Positions 15,401 to 62,337 of a stretch of DNA of 64,000 bases are shown in pieces (position 1 is the first letter of the stretch; each line of letters starts with the position of its first letter). Source of the DNA: Bellilinea sp. (GTDB lineage Bacteria > Chloroflexota > Anaerolineae > Anaerolineales > Anaerolineaceae); NCBI GenBank assembly GCA_026003615.1, contig BPHQ01000002.1, positions 62,001 through 126,000 on the forward strand, read 5' to 3'. The translations under genes were made by a program, and so were the position numbers. Below the pieces are notes generated by a model. That model ran no database searches. It was not told the origin of the DNA and saw only the letters and a program-made list of their open reading frames with translations.

Positions 15401-15581
15401 TGAGGTAAAGTACCTCCTCCGGTAGTACAGGTTCGGTTGTGGGGGTTGGCTCAACAGGCGCGGGTGTGTTCACAACCACCGGCTGGGTAGGGAGTGCTGG
15501 CGTAACAGTCTGCGTTTGGCAGGCCGACAATACCAGAACAATGATCATGAAAACCCACAGAACACGCATTGTCATTTTCAT
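12456..15581 (-). CDS. GH57 amylopullulanase-like lipoprotein with C-terminal sugar-binding-type domains
   Basis: The protein (1041 residues from the chosen start) opens with a lipoprotein signal ending LVLSAC and a Thr/Pro-rich linker. GH57 motifs follow: WHQHQPLYY, TTPYAHPILPLL, GLWPGEGAVAQ (probable nucleophile Glu326) and ILDGENAWEYY (probable acid Asp445), then EGSDWFWWYG. Two beta-type domains end it: one starting near TPTIDGTIGSGEWDKAAYY, and a glucodextranase C-terminal-like region (DPEGDDYGPGTYTYPT). This arrangement is known from archaeal amylopullulanases that hydrolyse alpha-1,4 and alpha-1,6 glucan bonds. GGAGG eight bases before the ATG at 15581 fixes this start; in-frame upstream codons overlap the previous gene. 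It is last in the operon and probably surface-exposed. Confidence 0.9.
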   Translation of the reverse strand: MKMTMRVLWVFMIIVLVLSACQTQTVTPALPTQPVVVNTPAPVEPTPTTEPVLPEEVLYLNLMWHQHQPLYYKDENGIYTRPWVRVHATKDYYDMAYLVSQYPNVHVTFNLTPVLLRQLEDFVKNGAKDLYWVMTEKPADQLTEDEKRFILQRFFDANWDKLIGRYPRYKELLEKRGGTDAEAIQNALNIFTEQDFRDLQIWWNLVWFDPMFLNQPPLKDLVDKGQNFSEEDKVILFQEVRRVMAEIIPLHRKLQDAGQIEVTTTPYAHPILPLLIDTNLQAKGNPGSDLPQKFSYPQDALTHLQRSVALYEENFGQSPRGLWPGEGAVAQIMVPFVLRAGYSWMATGEPVLAKSLGLDSFTRDSKETVNQADELYRPYYVTNQAGDKLAVFFRDGVLSDKIGFTYSGVSGTTAAKDLMQRLENIRAKLKEQNAAGPHVVSIILDGENAWEYYENDGIEFLSTFYQLLSESATIRTITPSEYIQKFPEQRMIEDLFPGAWFSPNYDTWIGEAEENTAWEYLRQTREVMAKYDISKVRQAPPEQIETALDYMLLAEGSDWFWWYGADQDSGQDEYFDLGFRELLRKVFETLGEPVPTFVDVPIIQARPVSAETPLQGLSTPTIDGTIGSGEWDKAAYYPAGEGSQLAGFAYAMDANNLFIRVDAGNGGAMARTLETPVVIYLQDRRFKSSYPYTLAETPGLLGMAASYALVWNGGTNLTFYNAAEEGWVEGVSVGSAASSAGVLEVSLPLTLLGEFETGDEYRFLIGVGAGQTLFPQKGPAQFVIPDLGLSTVLFEVEDPEGDDYGPGTYTYPTDAVFQNKAFDLKSFRVSYDDNNLIFRVGFHGPIPNPWGSPNGLAIQTIDIYIDQDPGSGTGARMLLPGRNAALTSGNGWEYALWLEGWTPQVLIPKSDTLEPVQASEISMKILVDPAARTVTVRVPRSSLGSGDPSTWGFVVAVLGQEGYPSAGVWRVRDVEQKSAQWRFGGAPSDGRRNHTRIIDLIWPADSQTSQEVMLSSTYPPSQADPGTLSADDFAQVELLKP

Positions 15582-15606
15582 CTTTTCATCCTCCATATGG
15601 TTTGAT

Positions 15607-17778: not shown

Positions 17779-17805
17779 AGGCAGAGGCTGCCTTCATCAG
17801 ATCAA

Positions 17806-46138: not shown

Positions 46139-46820
46139 TCCCACAATCCTCGAATAATTCAAACACCTTTTTCATTACTTCTTCAATATTCATTCCATCC
46201 GTATTTAGGACGACGGCGTCTTCTGCCGCTTTTAATGGCGCCACCTCACGGGATGTATCAATTTGATCACGTTGCTTCAGGCCAGCCAATACATCTTCGA
46301 ACTTGACAACCTCACCCCGTTGAACCAGTTCCAGATAACGCCGTCTTGCCCGTTCTTCCAATGATGCATCTAAATAAATCTTAAGATCGGCGTCCGGCAT
46401 GACCACTGTACCGATATCTCTGCCGACCATCACGACCCTACCTCGTTTACCTATCTGGCGCTGCAACTCGGTCATCGCCTTACGCACCCCTGCATAGGCA
46501 GAAACTTTGGAAACCCACTTTTCCACCTCGGGTTCGCGGATTGCCCAGGTGACATCTTCACCATCTAAAAGCACGTCCTCTTTTCGACCATCAGCTACAG
46601 TGGGCGGACGAACGTCAATCTGAACATGCCGAGCAAGTTGAGTAACCCTGTTTTCATCCTCGACGTTGATCCCTGCACGGATGACTGCCAGCGTTACAGC
46701 ACGGTACATAATTCCTGTGTCAAAAAACAAATATCCCAATCGTTCAGCAAGTCTCAACCCGATTGTTGATTTACCGGACGACGCCGGCCCGTCTATCGCA
46801 ATGCTTTTGGGTATGTTCAA
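46131..46820 (-). CDS. cmk: Cytidylate kinase
   Basis: The 229 residues show the full CMP kinase pattern: P-loop GPASSGKS at 11-18, the NMP-binding segment LFFDTGIMYRAVT, GRDIGTVVMPDADLKIYLDA and the lid region ERARRRYLEL. CMP kinase phosphorylates CMP and dCMP in the cytoplasm. It overlaps the GT39-type gene before it by four bases and the PAS kinase gene after it by eight, so this housekeeping gene is embedded between a glycan-assembly group and a signalling group. CDP-sugar metabolism nearby (the CDP-paratose-epimerase-like gene) also depends on cytidine nucleotides, but no direct link is shown. Confidence 0.95.
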   Translation of the reverse strand: MNIPKSIAIDGPASSGKSTIGLRLAERLGYLFFDTGIMYRAVTLAVIRAGINVEDENRVTQLARHVQIDVRPPTVADGRKEDVLLDGEDVTWAIREPEVEKWVSKVSAYAGVRKAMTELQRQIGKRGRVVMVGRDIGTVVMPDADLKIYLDASLEERARRRYLELVQRGEVVKFEDVLAGLKQRDQIDTSREVAPLKAAEDAVVLNTDGMNIEEVMKKVFELFEDCGNE

Positions 46821-48754
46821 GGCTGCACCTCGTTCGAAATTTCACTCCCCGGAAAGAGACTTTCTCTTGCCCAGAGGAAAACCATTTTGTTTTCCAGTGG
46901 AGCAACTTTAAAAATTGCCCACCTCGCCCACTCCTCGATCGTCATCAGATTCCAAATCGGTTGTACTTGCCAATGAAAATCCTGTCCGCGATAATTTTCA
47001 CCAAAAACAACTCCTTCAGATGATCCGGTTAAAACAACCGAACTCTGATGTTGAGGTTGGAAGGTGTTTTCAAAAGAAAATTTTGGATAATCTCTGGCCA
47101 GCCAGCGCATCGCCGGTTGATCTAATCCAATTGCCACCACATCCAGTCCCGTACGTGAGCGCACATTCAATTCCGCTAAATCTCCAATGGTATCTTTGAT
47201 CAAATCCGCTTCGCTGATGAACCAACCACGTCGAAATGGATTTGTCTCAGGATTGCCGCTAATACCGGCTGCATGAAAACTCCCTGAAAGCCAAAAGAGG
47301 ATTAATAAGGTCAGCCCACCCCATAATGCGCCATAACCAGACACACGAGTTGACCAACCCCAGACGATCAGGATGATGAAGATAATCACAAACAACAAAT
47401 CCGCTTCTCTGATTATCCCCCGCAAGGGACTCGTTTCCGGATTTTCACCTATACCGGCCGCGTATAAACTCCCGGAAAGCCATAAGTAGATTAATAACGT
47501 CAGCCCACCCCATAGTAGACTGAGCCATTTTGCGCCACAACCAGACACATGAGCTGACCAACCCCAGCCGATCAGGATGATCGAGATAATCACAAACAAC
47601 ATCGCAGCCAGAACAGCGATGAGTTCAGTCTGTAGGTTAACAGCCACCCGCCCTGGGCTTAACAAACGCATGATGTTTTGTGAGATAAACAGTAAAAACA
47701 CCAAAACGACCGCACCGTACACCAGCGCCTCAGTACGTTGCTCAAAATCAAATTTCAGCCGGGATGAAAGAAAACGTGCCGCCAAACCAAAGAGTGGCAG
47801 GGAAACCCACACCAAATCCAGAACTTCACGCGCTGGATAAAGGATGGAATGGAGCAGCGCAAAAAAGCTCCAAATCGTCAAAAAGATTTCCAGATTCACA
47901 GATTTTTTGATCTGCCGGCGCAAAGCGGATAAACCAAACAAGGTGCTGATTGGTTGATAAATTAGCATGGCTGCTAAGATTAATCCCGCCGAAACACCTG
48001 TTGGGTTGATCCAGCCGCGTAAATAAGAAACTAAACCACCCCCTACTGCACTCCATCCCACTGGCAGGATCAAAAACAGGCTCCCAAAAACCAACAGGGT
48101 TCCGCCTGCCCAAATTAGCCATTCTCTCCAATAAGTCTTAATCGAGTGCCACACTTCGTTTCCCTCAAAGGCTCCCCGATTAACCCAGCGATGATATACC
48201 CAAATGGCGACACCAAAAGGAATCAACCCTTTCCAAGCTTCCATCCCCCCAAATAACAACAGACCACAAAAGATACCCGCCATTCTCCAGCGCCGAGAGG
48301 ATATCGCCCAAATCGTGGCTAAAAAGAACAGGACTGCCCAGGTCTGGCTGCCAGCCTGACGGGAAGCCGCAAGCCAAACGCCGTCAAGCGCTAAACCCAA
48401 CGCGGCAATTAAAGCCGCTTTTCCCCCCAGCCATTTTCGAAAAGCCAAAGGCATCAGACAAACCAACGAACCCACGAATGCTGGCACAAAACGCCCCAGA
48501 AACTCCGTGGCAGAAAAAACGAAAAATAAGGCGGCAGTCGTAATTAGATACCCCCCATCCGGATTCATAAACGGCGAATTTTCGCCGCGAGCTAACCAGT
48601 AGGCCTGTAAAGCTAATCGGGCTTCTTCATCATTGAACGGTAACCTGTCCAATTGCATAAATCTTAACAATAGCCCAACGACTAAAACCAGTCCATACAA
48701 GACCTGTTCGACATTCAGTGTAAATGTCTTTTTCTTCATCATCTCAACGCTCAC
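46817..48754 (-). CDS. GT39-type membrane glycosyltransferase with internal duplication
   Basis: The 645-residue polytopic protein opens with the family loop RLPFNDEEARLALQAYW (acidic residues near 42-44), followed by about a dozen spans and a small C-terminal outside domain, as in PMT/ArnT-like transferases that use polyprenyl-phosphate sugars. Residues about 385-453 and 453-518 are repeats of each other, each with one or two spans (LLWGGLTLLIYLWLSGS versus LWGGLTLLILFWLSGS). The GTG at 48754 overlaps the stop of the upstream DUF2298 gene; ATG codons at 48742 and 48739 are alternatives. Donor and acceptor sugars are unknown. Confidence 0.82.
   Translation of the reverse strand: MSVEMMKKKTFTLNVEQVLYGLVLVVGLLLRFMQLDRLPFNDEEARLALQAYWLARGENSPFMNPDGGYLITTAALFFVFSATEFLGRFVPAFVGSLVCLMPLAFRKWLGGKAALIAALGLALDGVWLAASRQAGSQTWAVLFFLATIWAISSRRWRMAGIFCGLLLFGGMEAWKGLIPFGVAIWVYHRWVNRGAFEGNEVWHSIKTYWREWLIWAGGTLLVFGSLFLILPVGWSAVGGGLVSYLRGWINPTGVSAGLILAAMLIYQPISTLFGLSALRRQIKKSVNLEIFLTIWSFFALLHSILYPAREVLDLVWVSLPLFGLAARFLSSRLKFDFEQRTEALVYGAVVLVFLLFISQNIMRLLSPGRVAVNLQTELIAVLAAMLFVIISIILIGWGWSAHVSGCGAKWLSLLWGGLTLLIYLWLSGSLYAAGIGENPETSPLRGIIREADLLFVIIFIILIVWGWSTRVSGYGALWGGLTLLILFWLSGSFHAAGISGNPETNPFRRGWFISEADLIKDTIGDLAELNVRSRTGLDVVAIGLDQPAMRWLARDYPKFSFENTFQPQHQSSVVLTGSSEGVVFGENYRGQDFHWQVQPIWNLMTIEEWARWAIFKVAPLENKMVFLWARESLFPGSEISNEVQP
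47201..47599 (-). repeat. In-frame tandem duplication of about 195-204 bases inside a GT39-type gene
   Basis: The unit at 47201-47395 recurs at 47396-47599. Both begin CAAATCCGCTTC and share long blocks such as GTCAGCCCACCCCATA and CAACCCCAG. Length differences are multiples of three (copies of 65 and 68 codons), so the frame is kept. Confidence 0.9.
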
Positions 48755-51321
48755 GGTGTTTTTTCTACCAATGAATCGGGCACTTCATAAATCCGGACAT
48801 TTGAATTCGCAAAGAGCAAACCCAGGTTGGTGGAGAACTTGTTTTCGGATACGCGGTAGGTACTTCGTTCGACTGGCCCAATATAAATATACCGGATGCC
48901 ATACTGTTGGATGATATCTCTGGCTCTTAACCAATCACCAGTTTGATAGAGCGTTTCAATATCTGTCCGGCGCGAACCCATTTCCCTGGCACTTCCGCGC
49001 CATTGAATTTCATGACCCTCCCAGCCCAGCAAACCCGGTTGACCGGCATGGGTGGCAACCCGCGCAAATTGAGGATTATATTGAGGACCAACCGCTTCAA
49101 CTACATATCCCAACGGCATATTCCATAAAAATTGGAACGCCTGCCACTCTTCCGGTTCATCGCGCTGCAAATAGGCTTTACCATCAAGCGTCAACTGGAT
49201 GGGTTGACCGCGCAACAATCCTGTTTTTGCAGGCAACATCACCCCCGGATACACCAGAGAACATGCCAGCAGAATCACCCAACCCGTTTTCACTGTCCAT
49301 CCCCATTTACTGTTCAAGGAGTCTAATAGCAAAGCGCTGGAAAAAGCCGCTGCAATTCCCCACAAAATCCAAGCCTGAAAATAGAACTTAAAAATCGTAT
49401 TCATCCGGGTGCCAAAATCATCCTGTAAGTAGAAAAATTCTGGCACAAGCGTTAAACCCGCACCCAATAAAATTACCAACAAAACAAAACCACGATTTTG
49501 ATCTTCTTCTGGTTGTAAAGAAGAAAGATTTTCATCTTCACCGGAAGAATAGGGGTGTGACCGACGCAGGGTGACCATCATCGAAAAAACCAATATGAGG
49601 ATAATCATCAAGGTCAGCCATGTACCAGGACTGGTTATCCGCCTGAGGAAGGCAGCCTCAAATAATTCCGCACCAGATCCACCTTGTTTAATAAAAAACA
49701 AACTGCTAAGACCACTCAGAGTCTGTCCCATCCTTGCCAGATTGCTGTCGGCGGAAGCCATCCATCCTTGTCCCAATAATCCAGCCAGCTCGATAACTTT
49801 GCTGGCTACCAACATCAAAATCCACCCAACCGCCACAATCCCGGAGCCAACCAATGCACCCCAGCGCAGCCCAGAACGCAGGTCAGTTCTCCCCTGACTG
49901 ATCAACCACGCCAGGATGGGTATCAACAAGGGTGCAAACATAACCCAAAAGTGCACCCCGCGGGTGTGGAAAATCAGGCTGGGTAAAAAGCCGCCTGCTT
50001 GCGACGAAAATCCAAAATAAAATGGTAAATACAACAAAATGCCTAAAAAACCCACCGCAGCCGCAATAAACACAAAATCACCAACTCGCTGCCAGCTCCA
50101 TCCTCCACGCAGGTACCGATGAAGGGCGTAAACACCGGCAAACAAAGCCAGATAGATAGGAAAATCCCATGTATTCAAAAAAGAAAGACCGCCAAAAATC
50201 AGAGCGCCCAGCCAGATATTTGTATCTTTGAACCAAATTACCAACGATGGTTTCGGAGGGGGTTGTTTCTTAAAGGAGTAATAATAGTTCAACGCTAAGC
50301 CAGCAGCCAAAAGGACAAAGGGCATTCCCAGTACATGCGGGTGCATATCAGCTAGAAGATAGGAGAAAAAAGGAAATTCATCAATGACTTCCTCGCGTTG
50401 ATTGACCAGATTAAAATCCTGCAACACCCGTGAACCGCGCCACCATAACCAGTAGGTACGCTTCGGCGTCCAGGAGAGCGGTTCCGGTGGAGGCTGGTCA
50501 AATTCCTGAATCCCCAACCATGTCCAGAAGGATGATTCCAGAACGCCTTGCTCATTGCGCTTCCAAAAGATACCCCGTGCATGAAGCACATCTAACAATC
50601 CAGCCAGGTTACTCACAACTAGAATAAACAACGGTCCCAATAACGCCCACCCAACCGCTTTTCGGCTCGAATACCCCGGTTTCCCCCCTTTAAGGACACC
50701 GCTTAATAAATTGAATACAACCCCATAAGCAGCCAGGGCAGTTAATCCAAACCACATGGCAATCCCCAAGTTAAATCCAATTGAACTGGGAACCCCGCTC
50801 AGGTGAATCAGCATCGAAACAATGACGTATCCGAAATAGTAGTAGGAAATTGCATAACCCGCCAACCAGGGGTCGAATGGAGGAAAGGTCGGTGACCGGA
50901 GGATCGCATTAATAAACGCCAATTCCATTGGCTTTTCAGTGTAGATGATTTCCGGATTGGCAGCCCGTACGATGACCCAAAAAAGGTAGGCAGTGAAAAA
51001 AAGGCTTTCGGCGGTTATGATCAACCGCAACTGCCCTTTAAGCCAGTCACGGAACTCTTCCCATTTTCCGCGCATCACAAGGACGCTCACCCCACCCAAT
51101 AGAATCAGCCCAAACACAACTCCACCGGAATTATTTTGCAATAAGCCGAAACTAGTCAGCAGCCAGAAGATATACCCCCACAGCAGCAACCCCAACGGAC
51201 GGCTTAATGTATAGCCACGATCTGGCAAGAATTTCAGAAAGCGATAAGCCAGTGGCAGGGCAATAAATCCCACACCTAAAACAATCACGTACCACACAAA
51301 GGTCATCAGAATCTGGCTCAT
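48751..51321 (-). CDS. DUF2298 (Chlor_Arch_YYY) polytopic membrane protein
   Basis: The 856-residue protein has about 14-16 membrane spans and the family's defining aromatic motif near residue 157 (LAGYAISYYYFGYVIVSMLI), preceded by EKPMELAFINAILRSPTFPP. FPFFSYLLADMHPHVLGMPF and MNTIFKFYFQAWILWG are other conserved blocks. The overall plan resembles PMT-type transferases, and the last part holds a small soluble domain. Function is not established; a role in surface glycan or lipid-linked sugar handling is inferred from neighbours. GAGGTGA precedes ATG 51321; a GTG three bases earlier is the alternative. Confidence 0.85.
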   Translation of the reverse strand: MSQILMTFVWYVIVLGVGFIALPLAYRFLKFLPDRGYTLSRPLGLLLWGYIFWLLTSFGLLQNNSGGVVFGLILLGGVSVLVMRGKWEEFRDWLKGQLRLIITAESLFFTAYLFWVIVRAANPEIIYTEKPMELAFINAILRSPTFPPFDPWLAGYAISYYYFGYVIVSMLIHLSGVPSSIGFNLGIAMWFGLTALAAYGVVFNLLSGVLKGGKPGYSSRKAVGWALLGPLFILVVSNLAGLLDVLHARGIFWKRNEQGVLESSFWTWLGIQEFDQPPPEPLSWTPKRTYWLWWRGSRVLQDFNLVNQREEVIDEFPFFSYLLADMHPHVLGMPFVLLAAGLALNYYYSFKKQPPPKPSLVIWFKDTNIWLGALIFGGLSFLNTWDFPIYLALFAGVYALHRYLRGGWSWQRVGDFVFIAAAVGFLGILLYLPFYFGFSSQAGGFLPSLIFHTRGVHFWVMFAPLLIPILAWLISQGRTDLRSGLRWGALVGSGIVAVGWILMLVASKVIELAGLLGQGWMASADSNLARMGQTLSGLSSLFFIKQGGSGAELFEAAFLRRITSPGTWLTLMIILILVFSMMVTLRRSHPYSSGEDENLSSLQPEEDQNRGFVLLVILLGAGLTLVPEFFYLQDDFGTRMNTIFKFYFQAWILWGIAAAFSSALLLDSLNSKWGWTVKTGWVILLACSLVYPGVMLPAKTGLLRGQPIQLTLDGKAYLQRDEPEEWQAFQFLWNMPLGYVVEAVGPQYNPQFARVATHAGQPGLLGWEGHEIQWRGSAREMGSRRTDIETLYQTGDWLRARDIIQQYGIRYIYIGPVERSTYRVSENKFSTNLGLLFANSNVRIYEVPDSLVEKTP

Positions 51322-51338
51322 CACTTCACCTCAACACC

Positions 51339-51689
51339 TCACGCAGACCGGACTTCCAATGAGCGATTTGTCCAATCAATTATAAATACGCGCCGAACTG
51401 CTTCGAGAGGAATTTCGCCATAAACATGCGGGTAAGATTTTCCATTTGGAGCCGTTTCATACTTTACTTCGATCGGCAGGTTTGTTTGCTCAATTTCCAA
51501 CACCACCACATCTGTTCGCTTAGAGAATAACCGTTCTGCCACTTCCATGACCTGTTCACGGGTTGAACAATGAATGAACCCCTCGCTACTCAGAGAATCG
51601 GCATAATACGAACCCGATTCGATGGCATTGAACCACGCCTGACTCTCTGCTATATGATAAATCATTTCCGAAAATTGTTCGCTTCTCAA
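51339..51689 (-). CDS. DUF952 family protein
   Basis: This 116-residue soluble protein matches DUF952 over its whole length: MIYHIAESQAWFNAIESGSY, EGFIHCSTREQVMEVAERLF and YPHVYGEIPLEAVRRVF are the characteristic blocks. The family is widespread and of unknown biochemical function. Its ATG overlaps the stop of the 1766-residue gene by four bases and its stop is 17 bases before the DUF2298 gene, so it sits inside the membrane-glycosyltransferase operon. A second Met at residue 9 is where most family members begin. Confidence 0.85.
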   Translation of the reverse strand: MRSEQFSEMIYHIAESQAWFNAIESGSYYADSLSSEGFIHCSTREQVMEVAERLFSKRTDVVVLEIEQTNLPIEVKYETAPNGKSYPHVYGEIPLEAVRRVFIIDWTNRSLEVRSA

Positions 51690-54600
51690 GGAATTACCTC
51701 GTAAATTGCAGTGTCCATATCACGGTAAACTTCTTTCCAAAGTTCCCCGTCCCATTGTGGGAATTTGGATAGTCCGGCTTCCTCGTAATAGGCCTGTTCC
51801 AGCTGTCCCACAATAATATATTGCACATCGTAACGATCTAAAAGTTCTCTGATGGTTTCCTTTGAAAGACTATTGTAAATTTCGGCAACATCGAAAATCC
51901 GATTTTGTACACTAAAATCATTCGGTACGGCCGCTCGTTGCTGCCGTTGATGCCAGTCCCAGCCAATGATGGTTGGCAGTCCGGTGTAAATCGAAAATCG
52001 CGATCCCCACCGATACAACGGAGTGTTTGCTTCAACAATCACTGGTGAACCTTTCACGTTTTCCTGCATCCAACGAATCGCCCGGTAATCCTGACCCAAA
52101 TCCATCGTCCGCCCCTGATCGGAGTACTCCGCCGTCCGCATATAGGCCATTCCATCCAGACCATGTGGAGCAATACTGCTCATTCGATCACGAACCTTTG
52201 CCACACCAGCCATCAGTGGATACAGCATGGCCGCCACAATCAAAGCACTCAACCCAAGCTGCCAAATGGGTTTCCAGCCGGATTTCCACTCCCGTTCGAT
52301 TGCTGGCAACAACCAACCGGCGGCAGCCGCTGATCCAATGGCGAGTAAATTCCACGCCTGTAAATAAAACTTAAACACCGTGTTCATTCTACCAATATCG
52401 CCTACCAAAACAATAACTTCTACCATCAACGTAAGAATGACACCGGTACCAATCAAAAACAGCACCGCGCGTTTGGCATCCGATTGATTTGGGCGCAGCA
52501 ACAAAATCAAACACCATACTGCTAAAGTGAGCGGGTAAAAGGCAATTTCGACTTTCAATGATACATTCAACAATACAACAGCCAGTAAATAAATCCCCAA
52601 CCCGCTAAAAATCCAGAAGCGCCAAGGGCGCAATTTTTCCAGGGCCGAAAGCGGAGTATTTGCCATCCAGTTGATGGTTTCATAAATCAGCCACGAGGCA
52701 ATCACAAAGAAAAACAATCCCCAATGCGTGAGGTACGAAGCCACTGGTGAGCGGCCACCTTCCCAAATTTGCACACTGCCATAGCCTTGCGCATACCAGA
52801 ATGAATATGGCATAAACAATAGAAAAGACATGCCCGTCAATAGCAAACTTGCTCCTAAGGCAACCCCAAATCGTTTCAACCAAACCGGAAAACCCTTTAA
52901 GTAATTACCGTTACTGATTCCATAACGAATAGCGGCATAGAACAGGGCGGAAACCCCCAAACCCAGATATGTCGGCATATCCCACGTGTTTGTGGGTCGT
53001 AAAACCCCAATGGCAAGCCCGCCCACCAGCATCGAAAGCAGAAAACCTGCAACCGGCTTTATCCGCCCAAATCCCCAACGCCATTGACCAAATACCACCG
53101 AAAGACACCAGCCCAGTGCCAGCATTGTCAACGGCAAGGCAAACAGGTGAGCATGTGGATCGGCATATAAGAAGGTAAAAAACGGGAATTCAGTGATGGC
53201 TTCGCCCGGTAATGCCCGACTTGGAATCCAGTACCAGTCTCCGGTACTGTAAGGCAGACGTGCTCCGGTCAAAAAGCGTGAAATTCCCTGAACAGTCCAA
53301 GAAAGTTTTAAGAAAAAGTTCGCCTCTTCCAGCGACGATCCGGTCATTGCAAGCCGCATCAAACCATGCCAGATCATTCTGGCAGTTCCCAAATTACCCA
53401 GAATCAAGGCTGCTATGGCAGCCCCTATCCCAACCCAAAGTGGTTTTCCGAAGGAAGACCGTATCCCCGTGGTTTTTTCATCAGATTGACTGCTCTCTTT
53501 GACAAATTGAGCAGCGATATTCCAACCCGCGCTGAATGCTCCCAATGCAAACGTGGCGAACATGGTCGGCAGAATCAAATTGTAGGCTATTGAAGGGATA
53601 ATACCCAGCCATTTGGTGGGCACACCTACCAAAACAAATCCGTAGTAATAGTAATTAATGTATCCACCGCTGAACCATGGGTTATAGGGAGGAAAAATGG
53701 TACTTTTGAGTATGGCGTTGAAGTAGGCAAAATCCATTGGTTTTTCACCACCAAATGCAGGATGCCATAAATCCGGATTACCTACCCGAATCAACGTAAA
53801 AAAGATAAAAAATGCTAAACCAATCCCTTCAACCCACAGGTAGTACCTTTTTCGCTCACGAAATTCCTGAATTAAGTCATCTCGCTGCCAGAAGGCTGCC
53901 AACCCGCTGAATACCAGCAGTATCAGGAAAACAATGGTTATGGTATCCCGCTCAAACGTCCCCCCTAGCGATGCAATCAACCAAACCCCCCAAGATAAGG
54001 ACAGCATACCGGCTATCTTAATCAGAGGATAACCACGATCTGGCAATCCCCTCATGGCTATGCGCAAAACCGGATAAACAATCCATCCCAAAATGCTGAT
54101 GACCAGATACCATACCACTAAACCCAAAAACGGATAACGATTCAGCAAACCATCACTGTTGAATAATTCTGCCCAGGTACCACCGATGCGTTGTTTTGCC
54201 AGCAAATGGTCAGGAAGCATTAAGTTTGCGGGAAAAGAAGGCGCCTTTCCGGGTAGAACATGAATAACGGATGATAAATCCACACCCCTTAAGATGCGGA
54301 CGGTTTGCAGGGGGTCATATCCCTCGCTCTTTTTAAAGATCAACACCTTTGGGTGATCATATACCGTGAAAGCTTCTTCGGCAAATTGGGTATTGATCTC
54401 AATCCCACCCAATTTCGGGTTGGATTGAAACACGGCTGCCAGTTCAAAACCCAATTGACCGCTGAACATGCCCGGTTGGGCAACGCGGTAGCACCATAAA
54501 AGGTCTTTCTCCGCCGGACAACCCAGCAAGTAACGATAATAAGCGGTGGTTAAGGGATACCGTTCGGGTAATCGGGTAGTCGTTCCCCATTGGCGATTGG

Positions 54601-56986
54601 ATGAAATAAAAATATAGTCTGCCCGATTGAGCAGATCAATCATTCGCTCGCGTTTTTCCACTGTATCATCTGCGTAGAGATCGAGCGTTAGATCGCGTGG
54701 GTAAATTCCCCCGTAGGGGTCATACCCCTCTAACCGCAAAGGCAGACCATCATCCCACACGGTTTCATTTACGCCAGCAGCCGGGAAAAATGCAATTTCT
54801 CCATCTCCCTTCACCACATCCATATGAATGGTGTAGGTTTTTCCTGCTTCCACGTTCAGAGGTGGATTCAGTTGAAAACTCACCCTCTCACCCCGCGCAT
54901 CCAGACCATTTGCTGTAAACTCGTCCGTTAGGGATGCACTGCTGAGCGGTTGACCGGTTACACTGCGGTCATACACTGCAACTTGAATTGTTTTCAATCC
55001 TTGCGAGGCAGCCCGGTCCACCAACCGATAAAACACAATTTCTTCCAGTATCCCCGTTCGCAACGGCTGGAAAGTCAGTTCCAGCGGGTGATTTGCCCGG
55101 ACAGCTTCGGTCCAATCCGGCAGGATCTGCCGAAAAGTCCCTTCTTCATTTCGGATCAGAACTGCACCCCCGCCTTGTAACGTAAGGGCTGTTTCGGCGC
55201 CATCAAACTGAACCGAAATCGTATACAGCTTGCCTTCTTCAACTGCCAACGGAAAATCCAGAACGATTCGGTATGGTCGGGGTTGAGTTTCCCCAAAGCT
55301 TTGCATCAAAGATCCCGAACCAATGGCAGCATAGGGATTGCCAGCCTCATGGATGGTGACCACGAGGGTTTTGAGACTATCATTCAAGGTCAGGTCACGG
55401 ATTGAATCGAAGTAAATTTCGCTGATCGTCCCATTTTGAGTCGCGCGAAAACTGGTATGAATGGGCTGCTCACGTTGTATCACTACCAGAGAGTTAAAAG
55501 CCAGCGGTTGATGAAATTCTCCCTCTAAGGTTTTTATCGAAAGATTCACCGGACCGGGCACATTTTGATAAATCCAATGTGACGCTTCAACCCGTGTAAT
55601 TGGGCGGGTGTAAATCCCATCAAAGGCAATAGCCCAGCCAGCGGTCAACCCCAAAACAGCTACACCAAGACCTATTACCCCCCAACGGATAACTTCTCTC
55701 CTGATTGGACTCCTCAAATAACCTCGATTAACCTTTTCCCACATGGTTGGAAGAGTCCAGCCAGCTGCAAGCGCCAAAATGGGATAGATCGGCAATTGAT
55801 AACGCATTGTGGGATTGCCCTGTAAGGATTGCCAGAGGAAATAAAGGATTGCCCATCCCCATACAGCCGTAAAGGGGTGACAGAACCGATACTTGAAAAT
55901 CTGCCACCCCATCCACAGCATTCCCGTCCAGGCCAGCAAACCCATTGGCAGCCCCATTCCCCATAACACCATGTTTTGCAAGGAAAAAGTAACGGGACGA
56001 CGCGCCCATTGTAAAGCGGGTGGAAAATCCACATCACCGCCCGTCTGAGCGATCAAACTTCTCAAATTTTCCACCCACAAAGGATTTGGCAGGATATTCC
56101 AGATTTGTGGTCCTTGAAAAGCATACGGCTGAAAAACGCGAAAAATGATGAAAGCGCTGATCCCTCCTGACAGCAAACCACTCAGCACTGCCCTCAGGAG
56201 AAAATTCCTGTTATTACGCTGGTGCTGGATCAATTTCCATAACAGGACGCCCGGCAGAATCAAAGCCACAACACCAACATGAATCTTGGAAGCAGCCGCC
56301 AAACCGGCTGCTGCCCCAAAGGCAACACAATTCCAAATGAATCTCGTAAAATGCTTTTTATCCAAATTGCCAGCGAATATCCTATTGTCCGTTATTTCTG
56401 GCATGGTTGCCAACCGAACAGCAAAATAAATCGCCAGGGTTGAGAAAAAAGCAGCGAATGTGTCGGTTGTATAAAAATGGGCTTGCTGAATTTGTAATAC
56501 CGCCAGAGCAGAAAAAGCCGCCCCTAAAATCCCTGTCATTTTTCCCCACAGGTGTTCCCCAATCAAAAAAACCACCAAAACGGTTAATAAATCAACCAGC
56601 GCACTCAGACTTCTCCCAACAATTAGGATTTGTTCCCACCCACTACTTGAAAAAAGCCATTCGGTCAAATAGCGAGTTAAGAAAATTGGGAATGTACCAT
56701 ATACAAAAAAGCGATGACCGACATTATGAGGGTTCAATGTGGATTGAGCCGTATCAAAATACACTCCTAGTTGATCAACCGGTTTCAAATCGGCTGTAAC
56801 CCACACCAGAAACCGCTCATCCGGGTGGAGAAATTGTCCCTGACCCCAATCCAAACCTTTGAACCTGAGAAATAATCCAAGCAGTAAAATACCAAGAAAA
56901 GCAGCATCTAAAAGCCAGCTCAATCGCACCGATTCAAGAAAAACCCGGCTTTGTACTTTCCTGGATGTTGTAACATTCTCGCTCAT
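51686..56986 (-). CDS. Giant fusion of GT39-type transferase and DUF2298 protein
   Basis: One 1766-residue frame joins two membrane proteins. Residues 1-480 are a PMT/ArnT-like module with FLHPDERFLVWVTADL in its first loop. Residues about 480-930 are mainly non-membrane and beta-rich, with two similar segments (EEGKLYTISVQFDGAETALT and EAGKTYTIHMDVVKGDGEIA). From about 930 on the protein is a DUF2298 module: EKPMDFAYFNAILKSTIFPP, then GGYINYYYYGFVLVG near 1095, FPFFTFLYADPHAHLFALPL and MNTVFKFYLQAWNLLA, each matching the separate DUF2298 gene at 48751. More than 25 spans are expected. The frame is uninterrupted, so this is a real fusion rather than two misread genes. Confidence 0.85.
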   Translation of the reverse strand: MSENVTTSRKVQSRVFLESVRLSWLLDAAFLGILLLGLFLRFKGLDWGQGQFLHPDERFLVWVTADLKPVDQLGVYFDTAQSTLNPHNVGHRFFVYGTFPIFLTRYLTEWLFSSSGWEQILIVGRSLSALVDLLTVLVVFLIGEHLWGKMTGILGAAFSALAVLQIQQAHFYTTDTFAAFFSTLAIYFAVRLATMPEITDNRIFAGNLDKKHFTRFIWNCVAFGAAAGLAAASKIHVGVVALILPGVLLWKLIQHQRNNRNFLLRAVLSGLLSGGISAFIIFRVFQPYAFQGPQIWNILPNPLWVENLRSLIAQTGGDVDFPPALQWARRPVTFSLQNMVLWGMGLPMGLLAWTGMLWMGWQIFKYRFCHPFTAVWGWAILYFLWQSLQGNPTMRYQLPIYPILALAAGWTLPTMWEKVNRGYLRSPIRREVIRWGVIGLGVAVLGLTAGWAIAFDGIYTRPITRVEASHWIYQNVPGPVNLSIKTLEGEFHQPLAFNSLVVIQREQPIHTSFRATQNGTISEIYFDSIRDLTLNDSLKTLVVTIHEAGNPYAAIGSGSLMQSFGETQPRPYRIVLDFPLAVEEGKLYTISVQFDGAETALTLQGGGAVLIRNEEGTFRQILPDWTEAVRANHPLELTFQPLRTGILEEIVFYRLVDRAASQGLKTIQVAVYDRSVTGQPLSSASLTDEFTANGLDARGERVSFQLNPPLNVEAGKTYTIHMDVVKGDGEIAFFPAAGVNETVWDDGLPLRLEGYDPYGGIYPRDLTLDLYADDTVEKRERMIDLLNRADYIFISSNRQWGTTTRLPERYPLTTAYYRYLLGCPAEKDLLWCYRVAQPGMFSGQLGFELAAVFQSNPKLGGIEINTQFAEEAFTVYDHPKVLIFKKSEGYDPLQTVRILRGVDLSSVIHVLPGKAPSFPANLMLPDHLLAKQRIGGTWAELFNSDGLLNRYPFLGLVVWYLVISILGWIVYPVLRIAMRGLPDRGYPLIKIAGMLSLSWGVWLIASLGGTFERDTITIVFLILLVFSGLAAFWQRDDLIQEFRERKRYYLWVEGIGLAFFIFFTLIRVGNPDLWHPAFGGEKPMDFAYFNAILKSTIFPPYNPWFSGGYINYYYYGFVLVGVPTKWLGIIPSIAYNLILPTMFATFALGAFSAGWNIAAQFVKESSQSDEKTTGIRSSFGKPLWVGIGAAIAALILGNLGTARMIWHGLMRLAMTGSSLEEANFFLKLSWTVQGISRFLTGARLPYSTGDWYWIPSRALPGEAITEFPFFTFLYADPHAHLFALPLTMLALGWCLSVVFGQWRWGFGRIKPVAGFLLSMLVGGLAIGVLRPTNTWDMPTYLGLGVSALFYAAIRYGISNGNYLKGFPVWLKRFGVALGASLLLTGMSFLLFMPYSFWYAQGYGSVQIWEGGRSPVASYLTHWGLFFFVIASWLIYETINWMANTPLSALEKLRPWRFWIFSGLGIYLLAVVLLNVSLKVEIAFYPLTLAVWCLILLLRPNQSDAKRAVLFLIGTGVILTLMVEVIVLVGDIGRMNTVFKFYLQAWNLLAIGSAAAAGWLLPAIEREWKSGWKPIWQLGLSALIVAAMLYPLMAGVAKVRDRMSSIAPHGLDGMAYMRTAEYSDQGRTMDLGQDYRAIRWMQENVKGSPVIVEANTPLYRWGSRFSIYTGLPTIIGWDWHQRQQRAAVPNDFSVQNRIFDVAEIYNSLSKETIRELLDRYDVQYIIVGQLEQAYYEEAGLSKFPQWDGELWKEVYRDMDTAIYEVIP

Positions 56987-59202
56987 GGCTGAACCGTATC
57001 CTCTACTGCACCAGCCGGAGGCACAAAGTAGAGCAGAAAATCTTTTCCTTCCAATTCAACATCATAAAAATACAACCAGCCAGTCGGGTATAACTCCTGC
57101 AATTTATGAACAGCATCCTCATCACGTGGATTAATCACAAATAACTTTGCCCGTTTCTCGTTCAATGTTGTTTCAAATTGATCAGGCCACAGGGCATAAT
57201 CTTTCATTGGATAACCCGCATTGATTCCCACCAGGCGGGTATCTACCCAATGGGGATAAGGCACCACATACGCTGTATCCGGGTTGCCCTGCGACTCGCT
57301 GAAACCACGAATCACCGCTCCAATTTGAGAGGTATTCCACGCCCCAGCCATGAACTGCCGGTCAAATTGCCGGAATACCAGATCATAATTGGCAGAACCA
57401 ATGAAAAAGAGCAGGAAAGCAGTTACCGCAACAGGAATGACACGGGAAAGGCCGACCGAATAACGCCGTTCGAAAGAGCGCATGACAGCATCCAATCCCA
57501 CCGCCGCTAAAATGAAAACCGGGATGATTGCTCCGCCGCTGCGGTTTAGGGATGGATTTTCTTCCGGAAAAGCAAGCGAAAGGATCGAAGGCATCATCAA
57601 GAGTGGGATAGATACTAACAGGAAAAGGTCAAGCCAGTGGCGTTGACGAATGTAACGAATGACCACAAGCGCACTGCCAAGAAAAAACAGTGCTGCACTA
57701 ATCACATCCAACGCCGGACGATTGGGAATAGAATGAACCCAGATATTCCCATTTTTGTAGAAGAACATAATCATGGACTTCCACAAATTATTGAGAAAAA
57801 TAATCCAAACCGGTGCCGGATATACCGTTTCAGTCTCACCAACTCGGCTCAAAGCCCGATAGGCAAACATTTCCGGCTCACTGAGTGCGTAGCGAAGCAA
57901 GGGCAGGAACACTACAAGAGAAGTCACTGCCAACAGGATAAGGCCCACAACGGCTTCGCGCCGATTCCCACTGGATTGACGGTGAAACAGATAAATCAGA
58001 ACTGCCGCAACAACGACAACGGGGACGAGACGTGCCGGACTGTAACCATGTAATCCTAATCCCAGAAAAATTCCCGCCCAGATAAAATCATTCCGGTTAC
58101 GATATTTCAATCCTTTGACTAGAAAGTAGAGCGTTGGCGCAGCGAACAGTGGATACAGCGGAAACCGCAACCCGATTCGAGCGATCACATTTGCCCAATA
58201 AGCAACGCCCGCCAGCAAAAATGCAAACAGCGCAACCCGCTTTCCACCAACTTCCTTTCCCAGTAAGTAAATGAAGGGCAAAGTCAGCACACCTGCCAGA
58301 GCAGTTCCAATCTTTAGACTCATAAACGAAAGTTTGGTACCTGCCACAATGGCAATCAATGCCGTAAGGTACATTTGGATGGCTTCACGCCCGGTGTTAC
58401 GCGGGAAAAAGATGGAAGTTTGTCCCTGCAGCACATCCGCCACATCCATTAATTTTTCAGCATGGTCACTGAACATTTCTCCCGGAACTTCACTCAACCG
58501 GTAAAAACGGAAAAAAACCACAACTCCAATCGCCAGCAAAACCAGCATACTCCAGGGTGTGATCCGGATTATCCATTGCGGTGCGTGAAAAAACGATCTG
58601 ATTTTACTTTTCAAACTCACCCGGCTTCGAGAAGGGATATAAAACGCTGCTACGAGGGCTGCTGTACCTGTCAGCCACAGGGTGAGGTTTATTGTATTAA
58701 AACGGTTTCCGCTGAAAAAGATAAAAGACAGGAGCAATAAAGGGATTGAAAGCACGAGCGGATTCCGGCTTATCGTTACCGGCATAGGGATAGAAGATGG
58801 ATCTTCGTAATCCGGCACCAGCCACTCTTTGGAGAACACCGCAAAAAGCAGGGAAGCAAGGGCCAGACCATAAAAAATCAAAGCAACGTTGACTTGCTGA
58901 CGAGGGGGTTCTAAAAAAGATTGCCCAACCACTGCCAGAACAAACGCCACCAGTGTCCGCCACCCAAGGGGTTGTTTATCTTGGCTTATGGGTTGCGATG
59001 CAACCTTCACCGGTTCGAGCTTTTCTTCAACCTTTTCTTCAGTGAACCTGGAAGAACTGGTTAAGTCTTTTTTTGCTTCAAAAACAGGTTGATCGGGGGT
59101 AGCCTCTTTATCCCTGGCCAAAAGAGTCGGTGGCTTGCCTTTCCAAGGCATCAGTAAGGCTTTGACATAATCCAGAACAGTAGGTTCTTTCGATTCGTTC
59201 AT
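56983..59202 (-). CDS. GT39-type (PMT/ArnT-like) membrane glycosyltransferase
   Basis: The 739-residue protein has a soluble N-terminal stretch of about 75 residues, two or three spans, then a PMT_2-like module. The first loop reads EVPGEMFSDHAEKLMDVADV near residue 243, with the acidic Asp of the family, followed by FPRNTGREAIQMYLTALI and many spans. A small outside domain ends it. It should transfer a sugar from a lipid-linked donor to an outside acceptor. The stop overlaps the start of the 1766-residue gene by four bases. A promoter with 17-base spacing lies directly upstream, so a new transcription unit may begin here. Confidence 0.85.
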   Translation of the reverse strand: MNESKEPTVLDYVKALLMPWKGKPPTLLARDKEATPDQPVFEAKKDLTSSSRFTEEKVEEKLEPVKVASQPISQDKQPLGWRTLVAFVLAVVGQSFLEPPRQQVNVALIFYGLALASLLFAVFSKEWLVPDYEDPSSIPMPVTISRNPLVLSIPLLLLSFIFFSGNRFNTINLTLWLTGTAALVAAFYIPSRSRVSLKSKIRSFFHAPQWIIRITPWSMLVLLAIGVVVFFRFYRLSEVPGEMFSDHAEKLMDVADVLQGQTSIFFPRNTGREAIQMYLTALIAIVAGTKLSFMSLKIGTALAGVLTLPFIYLLGKEVGGKRVALFAFLLAGVAYWANVIARIGLRFPLYPLFAAPTLYFLVKGLKYRNRNDFIWAGIFLGLGLHGYSPARLVPVVVVAAVLIYLFHRQSSGNRREAVVGLILLAVTSLVVFLPLLRYALSEPEMFAYRALSRVGETETVYPAPVWIIFLNNLWKSMIMFFYKNGNIWVHSIPNRPALDVISAALFFLGSALVVIRYIRQRHWLDLFLLVSIPLLMMPSILSLAFPEENPSLNRSGGAIIPVFILAAVGLDAVMRSFERRYSVGLSRVIPVAVTAFLLFFIGSANYDLVFRQFDRQFMAGAWNTSQIGAVIRGFSESQGNPDTAYVVPYPHWVDTRLVGINAGYPMKDYALWPDQFETTLNEKRAKLFVINPRDEDAVHKLQELYPTGWLYFYDVELEGKDFLLYFVPPAGAVEDTVQP

Positions 59203-59281: not shown

Positions 59282-60100
59282 TCAAGTATTTTTTAAATGC
59301 GTTTTTCGAGCAACATAAAAAGAATAAACGCCATTGTCTTGTTCAGGTGACTCCAGGTACACTCCCTCACATATCTTGCGAGTGATTGCCAGATTCCATG
59401 GTTGACTCACCAGAATCCATCGCTTAAACAACCAACGCATGATTAAGGATGGTAGACCAAAATAATGGCCCCATTCCAAAATGGCTAAAGCACGTGGTGA
59501 AAAATAATCCCAATGACGCAACACTTCAAAACCTGCATTGTGCAGACGATTTTTCCAGACTGTAAAATCATCACAATGGTAATGGCGAGAGATGCGGTTA
59601 AAAAATCTCCGGTATTGTTGCGCCATACCTGTCAAACCAACTTGATCGAATAACCGGGCAATGGACAGATTTTCCAGAAAACGGTGATTGGGAACACAGA
59701 ACACAAACAAGCCACCCGTTTTGAGAACCCGTGCGGTTTCTTCCAGCACAGGATTTAAGTCGGTTATATGTTCTAACACCGAATTACTGACCACACTGGC
59801 AAAAGTTTCATCCTTGAAGGGCATTCGGGAACCACTGCCTCGTAAAGTAAGGCGATAAGTGCTTCTCCTGGCTGCCTCTCTGACCGGATTCCACCACGGG
59901 TCCAAACCAACTGTCAGGGGCTTTTCAAAAGCAATCGAGGCGAAGTGTCCATCTCCACAACCCAAATCGAGAACCGGCTCATTGAGTTCAATGATTTGGT
60001 AAAATCGGGCTTCAACTGCGCGAAGCATACCCCGAAAATAGGGTAATTCACGGATATTAAGCCACAAAAAATCTTTCTCAATAGATGAAGTCTGCCCCAA
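59282..60100 (-). CDS. Class I SAM-dependent methyltransferase
   Basis: The 272-residue protein has motif I at 43-52 (VLDLGCGDGHFASIAF), an acidic residue after beta-2 (VGLDPWW), motif SVVSNSVLEHITDLN and GGLFVFCVPNHRFLE, the methyltransferase type-11 pattern seen in polysaccharide and lipid modification clusters. No membrane span is present, though the C-terminal part is hydrophobic. The acceptor is unknown; neighbours suggest a sugar or lipid-linked glycan. The start appears to be TTG at 60100 with GAGG 13 bases upstream; the GT4 stop lies 20 bases before it, so they share a message. Confidence 0.85.
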   Translation of the reverse strand: MGQTSSIEKDFLWLNIRELPYFRGMLRAVEARFYQIIELNEPVLDLGCGDGHFASIAFEKPLTVGLDPWWNPVREAARRSTYRLTLRGSGSRMPFKDETFASVVSNSVLEHITDLNPVLEETARVLKTGGLFVFCVPNHRFLENLSIARLFDQVGLTGMAQQYRRFFNRISRHYHCDDFTVWKNRLHNAGFEVLRHWDYFSPRALAILEWGHYFGLPSLIMRWLFKRWILVSQPWNLAITRKICEGVYLESPEQDNGVYSFYVARKTHLKNT

Positions 60101-60119: not shown

Positions 60120-61289
60120 TCAGAATTTACGAAGATTTTGTTGTATCTCAGCAAATAATTTTTCATATTCTTCAGCAATCGTATCCGGCAGATACCGCTG
60201 GCGAATAGGTTGAGGATCTCGAATATAAGCCTGCCGATTACCCAACACCTCCAACAAAGCATTTGCCAGACCGTTCGAATCGCCAATTTCAACCACCTTT
60301 CCCATTTCGTGAATCCGGACAGGTTGCCGCACGCCGGGTAAATTGGATGCTATGGAAGGGGTTCCGCTGATCATGGCTTCAATTTGAACAAGACCAAATG
60401 CTTCGGTTGAATTCAACGAGGGTAATACTAAAACATCCAAATTGGGGTAAAAACAAGCCATCTGTTCGGGAGGAAGATTTCCAAGAAACTGCCATGCCCC
60501 ACTTTGTTGAAAACGAGCAATGCGAGGCATAATTTTGGCATAATAAGCCTCTTCTCCTACAATATTTTGGTAAGTGCCAGCAAATTGCACCTGAGCATTG
60601 GGATAAACCTCCAAAACCCTGGGCAAGGCTTCAACCAGCACCTCCACACCCTTTTCGGTTGCCAGCCGAGCAGCCATCCCAATCACAGGTTTGCGATTTT
60701 GTGGATTTGTGCGCTGACGGAATTCTCGAATCATCTGAGGTGAGACTTGCGGCAATTCCACAGGCGGGGGAATAACCTTCAATTTATGCAGATAACGGCG
60801 AAGATAAGGAGAATTTTCCGCATAATCCTGAGTATAAGTCACAATCCGATGAGTAAACTTAGCAGCAAGTTCATTCATCAGCAAAACAGCCTGGTTTGCC
60901 GCCCAGCTAAGCACCCCCGGTGGCATTCTCAAATCACAATGGTAGGTGATAACAGTGGGTTTCTTAAGCAACCGACCACGTAAAGCCACCCCCGCCGCAT
61001 CAAATTGCGGCAGGTGCAGTTGAATCACATCGTGTTCGCTCACCAGCCGATTCGCAGTAATGCCGAACGAAGGCATGATCACCCCCTTGCTGACCCGCAT
61101 TAAAACCGGCACTCGTACAATTCTTACCCCGGCTGCCTCCTCTTCCACTGGCAGCGATTTATCATACTGCGAGGTCATTACCGTAACCGTATGCCCCCGG
61201 CGAGCAAAAGCCTGCGCCAATCTTTCTGCGTATATCGTCAACCCTGAGGTATGAGGGCGATAATAAGTCAGGATGATCAGAATACGCAT
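60120..61289 (-). CDS. Glycosyltransferase family 4 (GT-B fold)
   Basis: From the ATG at 61289 the protein has 389 residues and begins MRILIILTYYRPHTSGLTIY, the normal GT4 start. The C-terminal half holds KPVIGMAARLATEKGVEVLV and the nucleotide-sugar-binding E-x7-E pattern in EAFGLVQIEAMISGTPSIAS. These enzymes use a nucleotide-activated sugar in the cytoplasm to extend a glycan or glycolipid. An upstream codon at 61352 would overlap the epimerase gene by about 60 bases and lacks a better ribosome site, so the shorter form is preferred. It lies directly after the epimerase gene. Confidence 0.9.
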   Translation of the reverse strand: MRILIILTYYRPHTSGLTIYAERLAQAFARRGHTVTVMTSQYDKSLPVEEEAAGVRIVRVPVLMRVSKGVIMPSFGITANRLVSEHDVIQLHLPQFDAAGVALRGRLLKKPTVITYHCDLRMPPGVLSWAANQAVLLMNELAAKFTHRIVTYTQDYAENSPYLRRYLHKLKVIPPPVELPQVSPQMIREFRQRTNPQNRKPVIGMAARLATEKGVEVLVEALPRVLEVYPNAQVQFAGTYQNIVGEEAYYAKIMPRIARFQQSGAWQFLGNLPPEQMACFYPNLDVLVLPSLNSTEAFGLVQIEAMISGTPSIASNLPGVRQPVRIHEMGKVVEIGDSNGLANALLEVLGNRQAYIRDPQPIRQRYLPDTIAEEYEKLFAEIQQNLRKF

Positions 61290-61293
61290 AACC

Positions 61294-62319
61294 CTAGAAT
61301 AAATCCTGATTGGTCTTGACCCACTCAAATAGGCGTTGTATACCTTCTTCAACGCCGACTTTGGGTTTCCAGCCCAGCAGCTTCTGCGCTTTGCGAATAT
61401 CTGAAATAAAAACTCGCTGATCGCCCGGCCGCCAATCCCCTCTTTTTATGGGGATATTTTCGCCGAGGAGTTTTTCGAGCAATTGGCCAAACTCTTCCCA
61501 AACGGAAATGGTTAATTCGGCTCCTCCGCCAATATTAAAGACCTGGCCAGCAGCAAGGTCTATATGTTCAATGGCAAGATCGTAGACATCGCAAAGGTCC
61601 TCAACAAAAAGGACATCCCGCACTTGCTTGCCATCACCATAAATTGTAATTGGCAGCCGTTTGACCGCCGCAATCACAAACCATGCCACCCAACCCTGAT
61701 CTTCAATGCCAAACTGCCGCGTGCCGTAGATACAAGATTGGCGCATGACCACTGTACGCAAGCCGTAAATCCGGGCATAATCGCGGGTGTATTGGTCTCC
61801 GCACCCTTTCGAGCAACCATAGGGAGAATGAAAATCCAGTCCAAAGGTTTCTGGAATGCCCAAGGGATAATCCACATACGCATAACGACTTTCCAGCTCC
61901 TTGACCCTTACCTCCTCCATTCCGCCGTATACCTTATTCGTAGAAGCATATATCACAATCGGATCGCGACCGGAAAGCCGGGCCGCTTCTAAAACATTGA
62001 AAGTTCCCAAAGCATTGACTTCGAAGTCGTTTCGAGGGTCAACCACCGAGGTCGTCACTGCAACCTGCCCGGCCAGATGTACAATCACATCCGCTTGTGC
62101 GGCAGCCTCTTGAATTGATTGAAAATCACGAACATCCGCCCGAACAAGTCGAAATGAGTTCTCACCATAGATATTTTTCAACCAATTCAGATTGCGGATA
62201 GCGCCGGCACGGGACAAATTATCAAAAACAGTTACCTGCTCGCCTCTTTGTAAAAGCCGGGCAACATAATTTGAACCGATAAAACCCGCCCCGCCGGTGA
62301 TTAAGTAGTTTCTCGGCAT
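61294..62319 (-). CDS. NAD-dependent epimerase, CDP-paratose 2-epimerase-like
   Basis: The 341-residue protein is an extended short-chain dehydrogenase: TGGAGFIGS at 8-16 binds NAD, and Tyr167 and Lys171 in HSPYGCSKG form the catalytic pair. FDNLSRAGAIRNLNWLK, YASTNKVYGG and MRQSCIYGTRQFGIEDQGWV are strikingly like RfbE, CDP-paratose 2-epimerase, which makes CDP-tyvelose. A dideoxyhexose role is not proven, as no CDP-glucose dehydratase gene lies in the window. GGAGG seven bases ahead selects the ATG at 62319; an ATG six bases earlier sits directly on the ribosome site. Confidence 0.87.
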   Translation of the reverse strand: MPRNYLITGGAGFIGSNYVARLLQRGEQVTVFDNLSRAGAIRNLNWLKNIYGENSFRLVRADVRDFQSIQEAAAQADVIVHLAGQVAVTTSVVDPRNDFEVNALGTFNVLEAARLSGRDPIVIYASTNKVYGGMEEVRVKELESRYAYVDYPLGIPETFGLDFHSPYGCSKGCGDQYTRDYARIYGLRTVVMRQSCIYGTRQFGIEDQGWVAWFVIAAVKRLPITIYGDGKQVRDVLFVEDLCDVYDLAIEHIDLAAGQVFNIGGGAELTISVWEEFGQLLEKLLGENIPIKRGDWRPGDQRVFISDIRKAQKLLGWKPKVGVEEGIQRLFEWVKTNQDLF

Positions 62320-62337
62320 ATACATTCCTCCCCGGTT

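Follow-up and report, generated by a model that had tools for sequence, protein, structure and literature searches.

The fusion gene and its integrity

The window analysed here, a stretch of 64,000 nucleotides on contig BPHQ01000002.1 from Bellilinea sp. (Chloroflexota), carries at 51686–56986 a 1766-residue open reading frame (ORF) in which an N-terminal half of the GT39 type is joined to a C-terminal half matching DUF2298, also named Chlor_Arch_YYY; this and all other window features below lie on the minus strand. The gene starts with ATG and matches the profiles TIGR03662 and PF10060. The original prediction, made from the sequence alone, had proposed this fusion, and the observation itself is confirmed: a single ORF contains no internal stops and both modules are recognised in it. 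A stop or frameshift hidden by a sequencing error near residue 930 had been named as a possible flaw. Such an origin is ruled out because the orthologue in Bellilinea caldifistulae, of the same genus, also has 1766 codons and aligns with the window fusion without gaps, and because the junction (residues 891–951) is under strong purifying selection, with a ratio of nonsynonymous to synonymous substitution rates (dN/dS) of 0.04 between the two species (0.08 over the whole fusion).

The N half begins with a predicted GT-C glycosyltransferase membrane domain (residues 1–480; 55547–56986), followed by an insert of about 260 residues (480–740; 54767–55549) that is beta-rich in the model and has a weak, below cut-off match to DUF4082 (PF13313, E = 1e-4). 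The insert sits before a predicted extracytoplasmic globular domain (residues 741–890; 54317–54766), which is the best-conserved stretch of the fusion in the comparison with B. caldifistulae (94% identity to Bellilinea). The linker (residues 891–951; 54134–54316) leads into the DUF2298 half (residues 952–1766; 51689–54133), which opens with three extra transmembrane helices in the model (residues 952–1034; 53885–54133).

Predicted structure of the two halves

Neither half had a relative in the PDB that could be found by sequence, and fold prediction was therefore used. The N half was modelled by AlphaFold with a predicted local distance difference test score (pLDDT) of 89, and a structure search with the model returned only GT-C glycosyltransferases at the top, the nearest being AglB (Z 30.5), ArnT (27.2) and Pmt4 (27.1). 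By profile, the window N half matched PF02366 marginally (E = 1.2e-4, slightly under the cut-off), and in a genome-wide scan the ORF was above the PMT_2 cut-off; PMT_2 matched in 41 and PMT in 28 of 54 N-half relatives. The DE motif of the first external loop of PMT and PMT_2 proteins (defined in PMC6801728 and PMC12331936) is present as D56-E57 in the sequence HPDE (56816–56821), and both residues are invariant in all 54 sequences, as are D175 and R395-Y396. We class the N half, on its model, as a PMT-like GT-C, and the proposed likeness to PMT and ArnT held up.

In the C half, residues 953–1764 match TIGR03662 (E = 8.5e-150; 500.7 bits, cut-off 300.25) and residues 998–1548 match PF10060 (E = 2.9e-108; 363.4 bits, cut-off 27.8). 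Its AlphaFold model had a pLDDT of 93.6 and a predicted template-modelling score (pTM) of 0.94. All five Foldseek matches with E < 0.001 were GT-C proteins (DPY19, AftA). By VIA-align, ranks 1 to 39 were all GT-C, with Z from 7.9 to 17.8 and a drop to 5.5 in the next row; they comprised STT3, AglB, ALG9, ALG12, ArnT, DPY19, AftA/B/D, PglB, Emb and PIG-U. The highest score was for STT3 (8agb; Z 17.8 over 473 residues), with AglB at 15.9, ALG9 at 15.6, ArnT at 14.8 and PglB at 12.8, so that ArnT, a comparison proposed for both halves in the original prediction, is found by each. The C-terminal domain superimposed on the AglB globular domain 3vu0 with Z 11.2 and a root-mean-square deviation (rmsd) of 2.4 over 118 residues. 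The predicted model thus combines a GT-C membrane fold with an extracytoplasmic C-terminal domain, and we assign the C half to DUF2298/TIGR03662, with GT-C as its predicted fold.

In the loops of the three extra helices, basic residues alternate according to the positive-inside rule, as if the N-terminus of this half lay outside. Because of this alternation, we infer that the helices would reverse the direction of the chain, whose N half ends outside the cytoplasm, and so reset the topology for the second module.

Candidate active-site residues of DUF2298

Three features are common to GT-C enzymes: an acidic motif in loop 1, an aspartate in loop 2 and an arginine in a late loop (PMC6801728); these motif residues are essential in the PMT of M. 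tuberculosis (PMC12331936). All three were found in the DUF2298 half, where conservation was counted over 91 modules spanning both clades of the family described below. The first-loop acidic motif, EKPMD (residues 1081–1085; 53732–53746), directly follows the first core transmembrane helix (model helix 84–118), with E1081 in 90/91 modules and aspartate or glutamate at 1085 in 89/91. The second-loop acid lies in DxHxH (residues 1276–1280; 53147–53161), read as D1276-x-H1278-x-H1280: H1278 is present in every module and D1276, at the start of the next transmembrane helix (model helix 328–349), in 86, the exceptions being cysteine in four solo proteins of family f28 and threonine in one other solo. 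The third element is RMNTVFK (residues 1533–1539; 52370–52390), R1533-x-N1535...K1539, in which R1533 and N1535 are invariant and K1539 occurs in 89/91; the placement of R1533 in a late external loop is taken from the model only. The arginine and lysine of this motif are likely candidates for contact with the lipid phosphate. E1266 is likewise invariant or near-invariant in both paralogous clades, archaea and Clostridia, and residues of the active-site type at all three sites (EKPMD, DxHxH and R1533-x-N1535...K1539) are kept in Halarchaeum and Pseudobutyrivibrio.

In the f28 solo proteins (L049:7562-9940, L050:5824-8202, L053:8791-11553 and L066:10395-12824), the second-loop aspartate is replaced by cysteine (SCFHAH) and the EKPM motif reads EMFM or EMYM, so these proteins possibly have altered or lost activity. 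A clade-specific switch at D/E1085 and A/P1279 was clean in the first 74 modules and broke down in the wider set, in which some lineages were swapped; it is not claimed here.

Distribution and architecture

TIGR03662 was found in 212 of the 301 Chloroflexota genomes sampled (193 above the cut-off) and the N half in 198. The usual form across the phylum is a single open frame of 1400–1850 residues carrying the N half and DUF2298, and the concern that the pairing might not recur in other genomes was thereby answered; its recurrence goes beyond chance on every measure. Families f23, f33 and f59 have open frames of up to about 2500–2900 residues; one of them, in f23 (Chloroflexia; L051:9100-16593, minus strand, 2498 residues), joins two DUF2298 modules to an N half and has TPR repeats at its C-terminus, so that a single polypeptide apparently carries three GT-C modules.

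A tree of the 91 DUF2298 modules (quick method, midpoint root) split into a solo clade of 40 rows and a fused-type clade of 51 rows, each with support of 100, and both modules of the double proteins fell in the fused-type clade. We surveyed fused and split forms in 119 loci, counting intact genes only. Of the fused-type genes, 86/88 were joined to an N half, the exceptions being at loci L077 and L117, compared with 0/102 of the solo clade, whose members often adjoin the fusion. Because the tree divides into these two supported clades, the DUF2298 duplication appears to predate the sampled Chloroflexota families, with the fusion tied to one paralogue. The window itself holds a member of the other ancient clade, an 857-residue solo protein at 48751–51324 (TIGR03662, E = 5e-152; PF10060, E = 1.7e-112). 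As had been proposed, the C half matches this protein block by block: BLASTP aligned residues 958–1764 of the fusion with 10–848 of the solo protein at 28% identity over 547 + 270 columns (E = 6e-41).

At three f28 loci (L049, L050 and L053), a stand-alone N half lies beside a solo-clade DUF2298, so either part can occur on its own. We considered these loci as a fission of the fusion and rejected this, as the tree places their DUF2298 in the solo clade and the fused-type module is absent there. At L117 (5991-13314; Chloroflexota metagenome-assembled genome RUG13631), a fused-clade and a solo-clade DUF2298 stand separate and adjacent after a PMT_2 gene, with no N half. A 783-residue ORF upstream was considered as a detached N half and rejected, because it lacks a match to the N-half profile and encodes a PMT_2-like protein in the place where the upstream PMT_2 gene normally lies. 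At L120 (5517-10480), the fusion gene of a metagenome-assembled genome is split over several overlapping frames, likely through sequencing errors.

DUF2298 stands alone as the sole copy in one genome (G057) and is also found in H. volcanii and M. acetivorans; its archaeal context was covered by controls and one Halarchaeum plasmid gene. A lone DUF2298 lies within a polysaccharide gene cluster on pNP95 (L157:9917-12172), a plasmid of the rumen clostridium Pseudobutyrivibrio xylanivorans, and was possibly acquired horizontally. No relative was found in the viral contigs searched.

Gene neighbourhood

The fusion lies within a run of genes. Upstream are a sugar epimerase/dehydratase that is NAD-dependent (61294–62325; PF16363/PF01370), a GT4 glycosyltransferase (60120–61352; PF00534), an S-adenosylmethionine methyltransferase of the same run (59282–60100; PF08241) and a PMT_2-family GT-C transferase (56983–59202; PF13231, E = 2.5e-11). 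Downstream, a small DUF952 protein (51339–51689; PF06108, E = 4.5e-28) separates the fusion from the solo DUF2298, which is followed by an Agl23-like membrane protein (46817–48754) with a partial, below cut-off match to TIGR03663 (E = 6e-13). Four-base overlaps join PMT_2 to the start of the fusion, the end of the fusion to DUF952, the solo DUF2298 to the Agl23-like gene and the latter to cmk. The order epimerase, GT4, methyltransferase, PMT_2, fusion, solo DUF2298, Agl23-like, cmk recurs, whole or in part, at many loci. A similar small ORF occupies the DUF952 position at L077, and an equal-sized gap does so at L033 and L074.

TIGR03663, the Agl23 family, often neighbours DUF2298 genes. In the 301 genomes (E < 1e-20, tables read by eye), TIGR03662 and TIGR03663 occurred together in 190, TIGR03662 alone in 8, TIGR03663 alone in 2 and neither in 101; the genomes are related, and these are not 301 independent observations. 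Purified Haloarcula hispanica Agl23, whose membership in TIGR03663 is taken from NCBI's name for the family, flips the lipid-linked oligosaccharide Man5GlcNAc2-PP-Phy in vitro (PMC11182771). Because the TIGR03663 gene of the source genome that is above the cut-off (G000:C2:322173-324227, plus strand; ORF of 1158 residues) also matches PMT_2, this flippase-associated family itself looks PMT-like. Two TIGR03663 matches in one 1624-residue open frame (G016:C93:63640-66903, minus strand) form another tandem of PMT-like modules. Elsewhere in the window, a run of glycoside hydrolases (12456–21275) comprises a GH57 protein with a glucodextranase C-terminal module and two proteins of the alpha-amylase family.

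Discussion

Both predicted folds match GT-C, and DUF2298 keeps GT-C-like signatures across paralogues, archaea and Clostridia, so we read the fusion as, most likely, two GT-C transferases in tandem and not a transferase with an accessory module. The suggestion in the original prediction that DUF2298 is a transferase in its own right has good support from predicted fold and from conservation of the active-site type, and we consider it likely that DUF2298 is an active GT-C. On these models we favour, with fair confidence, a two-headed extracytoplasmic glycosyltransferase, with two GT-C enzymes per chain that would add successive sugars to one surface glycan. That the two halves act together is consistent with the near-fixed fusion, the conserved gene order and the co-occurrence; that they serve one and the same glycan is a step further, which we infer and judge rather probable. 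The predicted relationship was thus partly upheld. The earlier view of the fusion as direct evidence for it was too strong, as one of two ancient paralogues is fused, f28 has a stand-alone N half, and L077 and L117 lack one.

Several observations weigh against a tandem of two active enzymes. Foldseek TM-scores of the DUF2298 half against single GT-Cs were low (0.28–0.39) and its VIA-align rmsd values were mostly 6–8 Å, so it would be a remote member of the GT-C group. Profile-profile comparison of the N half with the DUF2298 half gave no homology signal, and the kinship of the halves is one of predicted fold only. D1276 is replaced by cysteine in the f28 solo proteins. Finally, the fused-clade DUF2298 genes without an N half at L077 and L117 show that the link between the halves is not absolute.

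The loss of D1276 in some solo members would also suit a DUF2298 that is a catalytically dead GT-C-like subunit, binding acceptor or donor in support of an active N half, in the way that PIG-U acts in the GPI transamidase. Some proteins with a GT-C fold have no known transfer activity, the structure matches of DUF2298 include PIG-U, and the fusion ties DUF2298 to an apparently active GT-C. However, E1081, E1266, D1276, H1278, R1533 and N1535 show little or no variation across the two clades, archaea and Clostridia, a degree of conservation beyond what a scaffold needs, and DUF2298 can exist alone, as in G057; we regard a dead subunit as unlikely. Slightly less likely still is a flippase paired with a transferase, in which one half, or DUF2298 generally, would move lipid-linked sugars over the membrane to the other half in the manner of Haloarcula Agl23. 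In its favour are the co-occurrence and frequent adjacency of TIGR03663, the activity of the purified H. hispanica protein and the PMT_2 match of the genome's TIGR03663 ORF, by which a PMT-like protein can be tied to flipping. Against it, neither half of the fusion matches TIGR03663 at E ≤ 1 and both keep the acidic and arginine residues of transferases, for which a flippase would have no use. A chance joining of two enzymes from different pathways, or one kept for co-expression only, with no shared substrate, would fit the few lineages in which the halves are separate or single, but this is improbable given fusion in 86/88 intact genes phylum-wide, always with a partner from one clade, a junction under purifying selection and conserved neighbours.

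For the two-headed transferase, we propose that polyprenyl-phosphate sugars would be made inside the cell and flipped to its outer face. There, each half would take one sugar from such a donor, and the N half and the DUF2298 half would act in turn on a single growing surface glycan, which may be a lipid-linked oligosaccharide, an S-layer glycoprotein or an exopolysaccharide. Fusion would keep one active site close to the next, the DUF2298 half would regain its proper orientation through the three extra helices that follow the N half and its extracytoplasmic domain, and neighbouring GT-Cs may add further sugars, as ALG3/9/12/6/8/10 do in the lumen of the endoplasmic reticulum. The Agl23-like protein, with those GT-Cs, would take part in building the surface glycan. 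Fold and residue conservation in this scheme are computed; activity, donor, acceptor and the order of addition are proposed.

More broadly, we tentatively propose, as a possibility somewhat short of even, that DUF2298/Chlor_Arch_YYY is a new family of active GT-Cs in archaea, Chloroflexota and some Clostridia, and that Chloroflexota build two- and three-headed GT-C chains, which can reach 2500 residues or more and extend a single surface glycan, one sugar after another, from lipid donors. DUF2298 occurs in most of the sampled Chloroflexota and has no assigned function, and a GT-C assignment gives it a testable job, with named candidate catalytic residues that make it a direct target for mutagenesis in the genetically tractable Haloferax. 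Two GT-Cs in one chain would, if true, be an unusual way to order extracytoplasmic sugar additions, and would direct attention to a pathway for surface glycans in Chloroflexota, a phylum in which the cell envelope has received little study.

The most original elements are the function proposed for DUF2298 and the two- or three-headed architecture. A literature search for DUF2298 or tandem GT-C proteins returned nothing of use, and the papers found mention neither an N-terminal second GT-C nor a GT-C fold for DUF2298. Novelty is limited, since the TIGRFAM note on TIGR03662 already describes a class of members with added N-terminal sequence, two copies and TPR repeats, and since Pfam may already group DUF2298 in its GT-C clan.

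Comparison with known systems

TIGR03662 and PF10060 match the C half and the solo protein over their full length, well above the cut-offs. Both families are listed as of unknown function, and the L051 protein has exactly the layout noted for TIGR03662. The Agl23 family (TIGR03663), associated with flipping of lipid-linked sugars in Haloarcula, co-occurs with the fusion, is often adjacent to it and is likewise PMT_2-like. In fold, both halves come closest to the oligosaccharyltransferases STT3 and AglB (GT66), and the match extends to the C-terminal globular domain of DUF2298; identity in the structural alignments is 9–17%. The WWDYG-type sequon motif (pattern WW[DE][YFW]G) was absent from all Chlor_Arch_YYY-containing and N-half proteins of the set, so the fusion falls outside the oligosaccharyltransferase family despite this nearest fold. 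With PMT and ArnT (GT39, GT83), the N half shares the PMT and PMT_2 matches of its relatives, the HPDE motif and Z scores of about 27 to Pmt4 and ArnT; unlike them, it has an extra beta-rich insert of about 260 residues and a second GT-C fused on.

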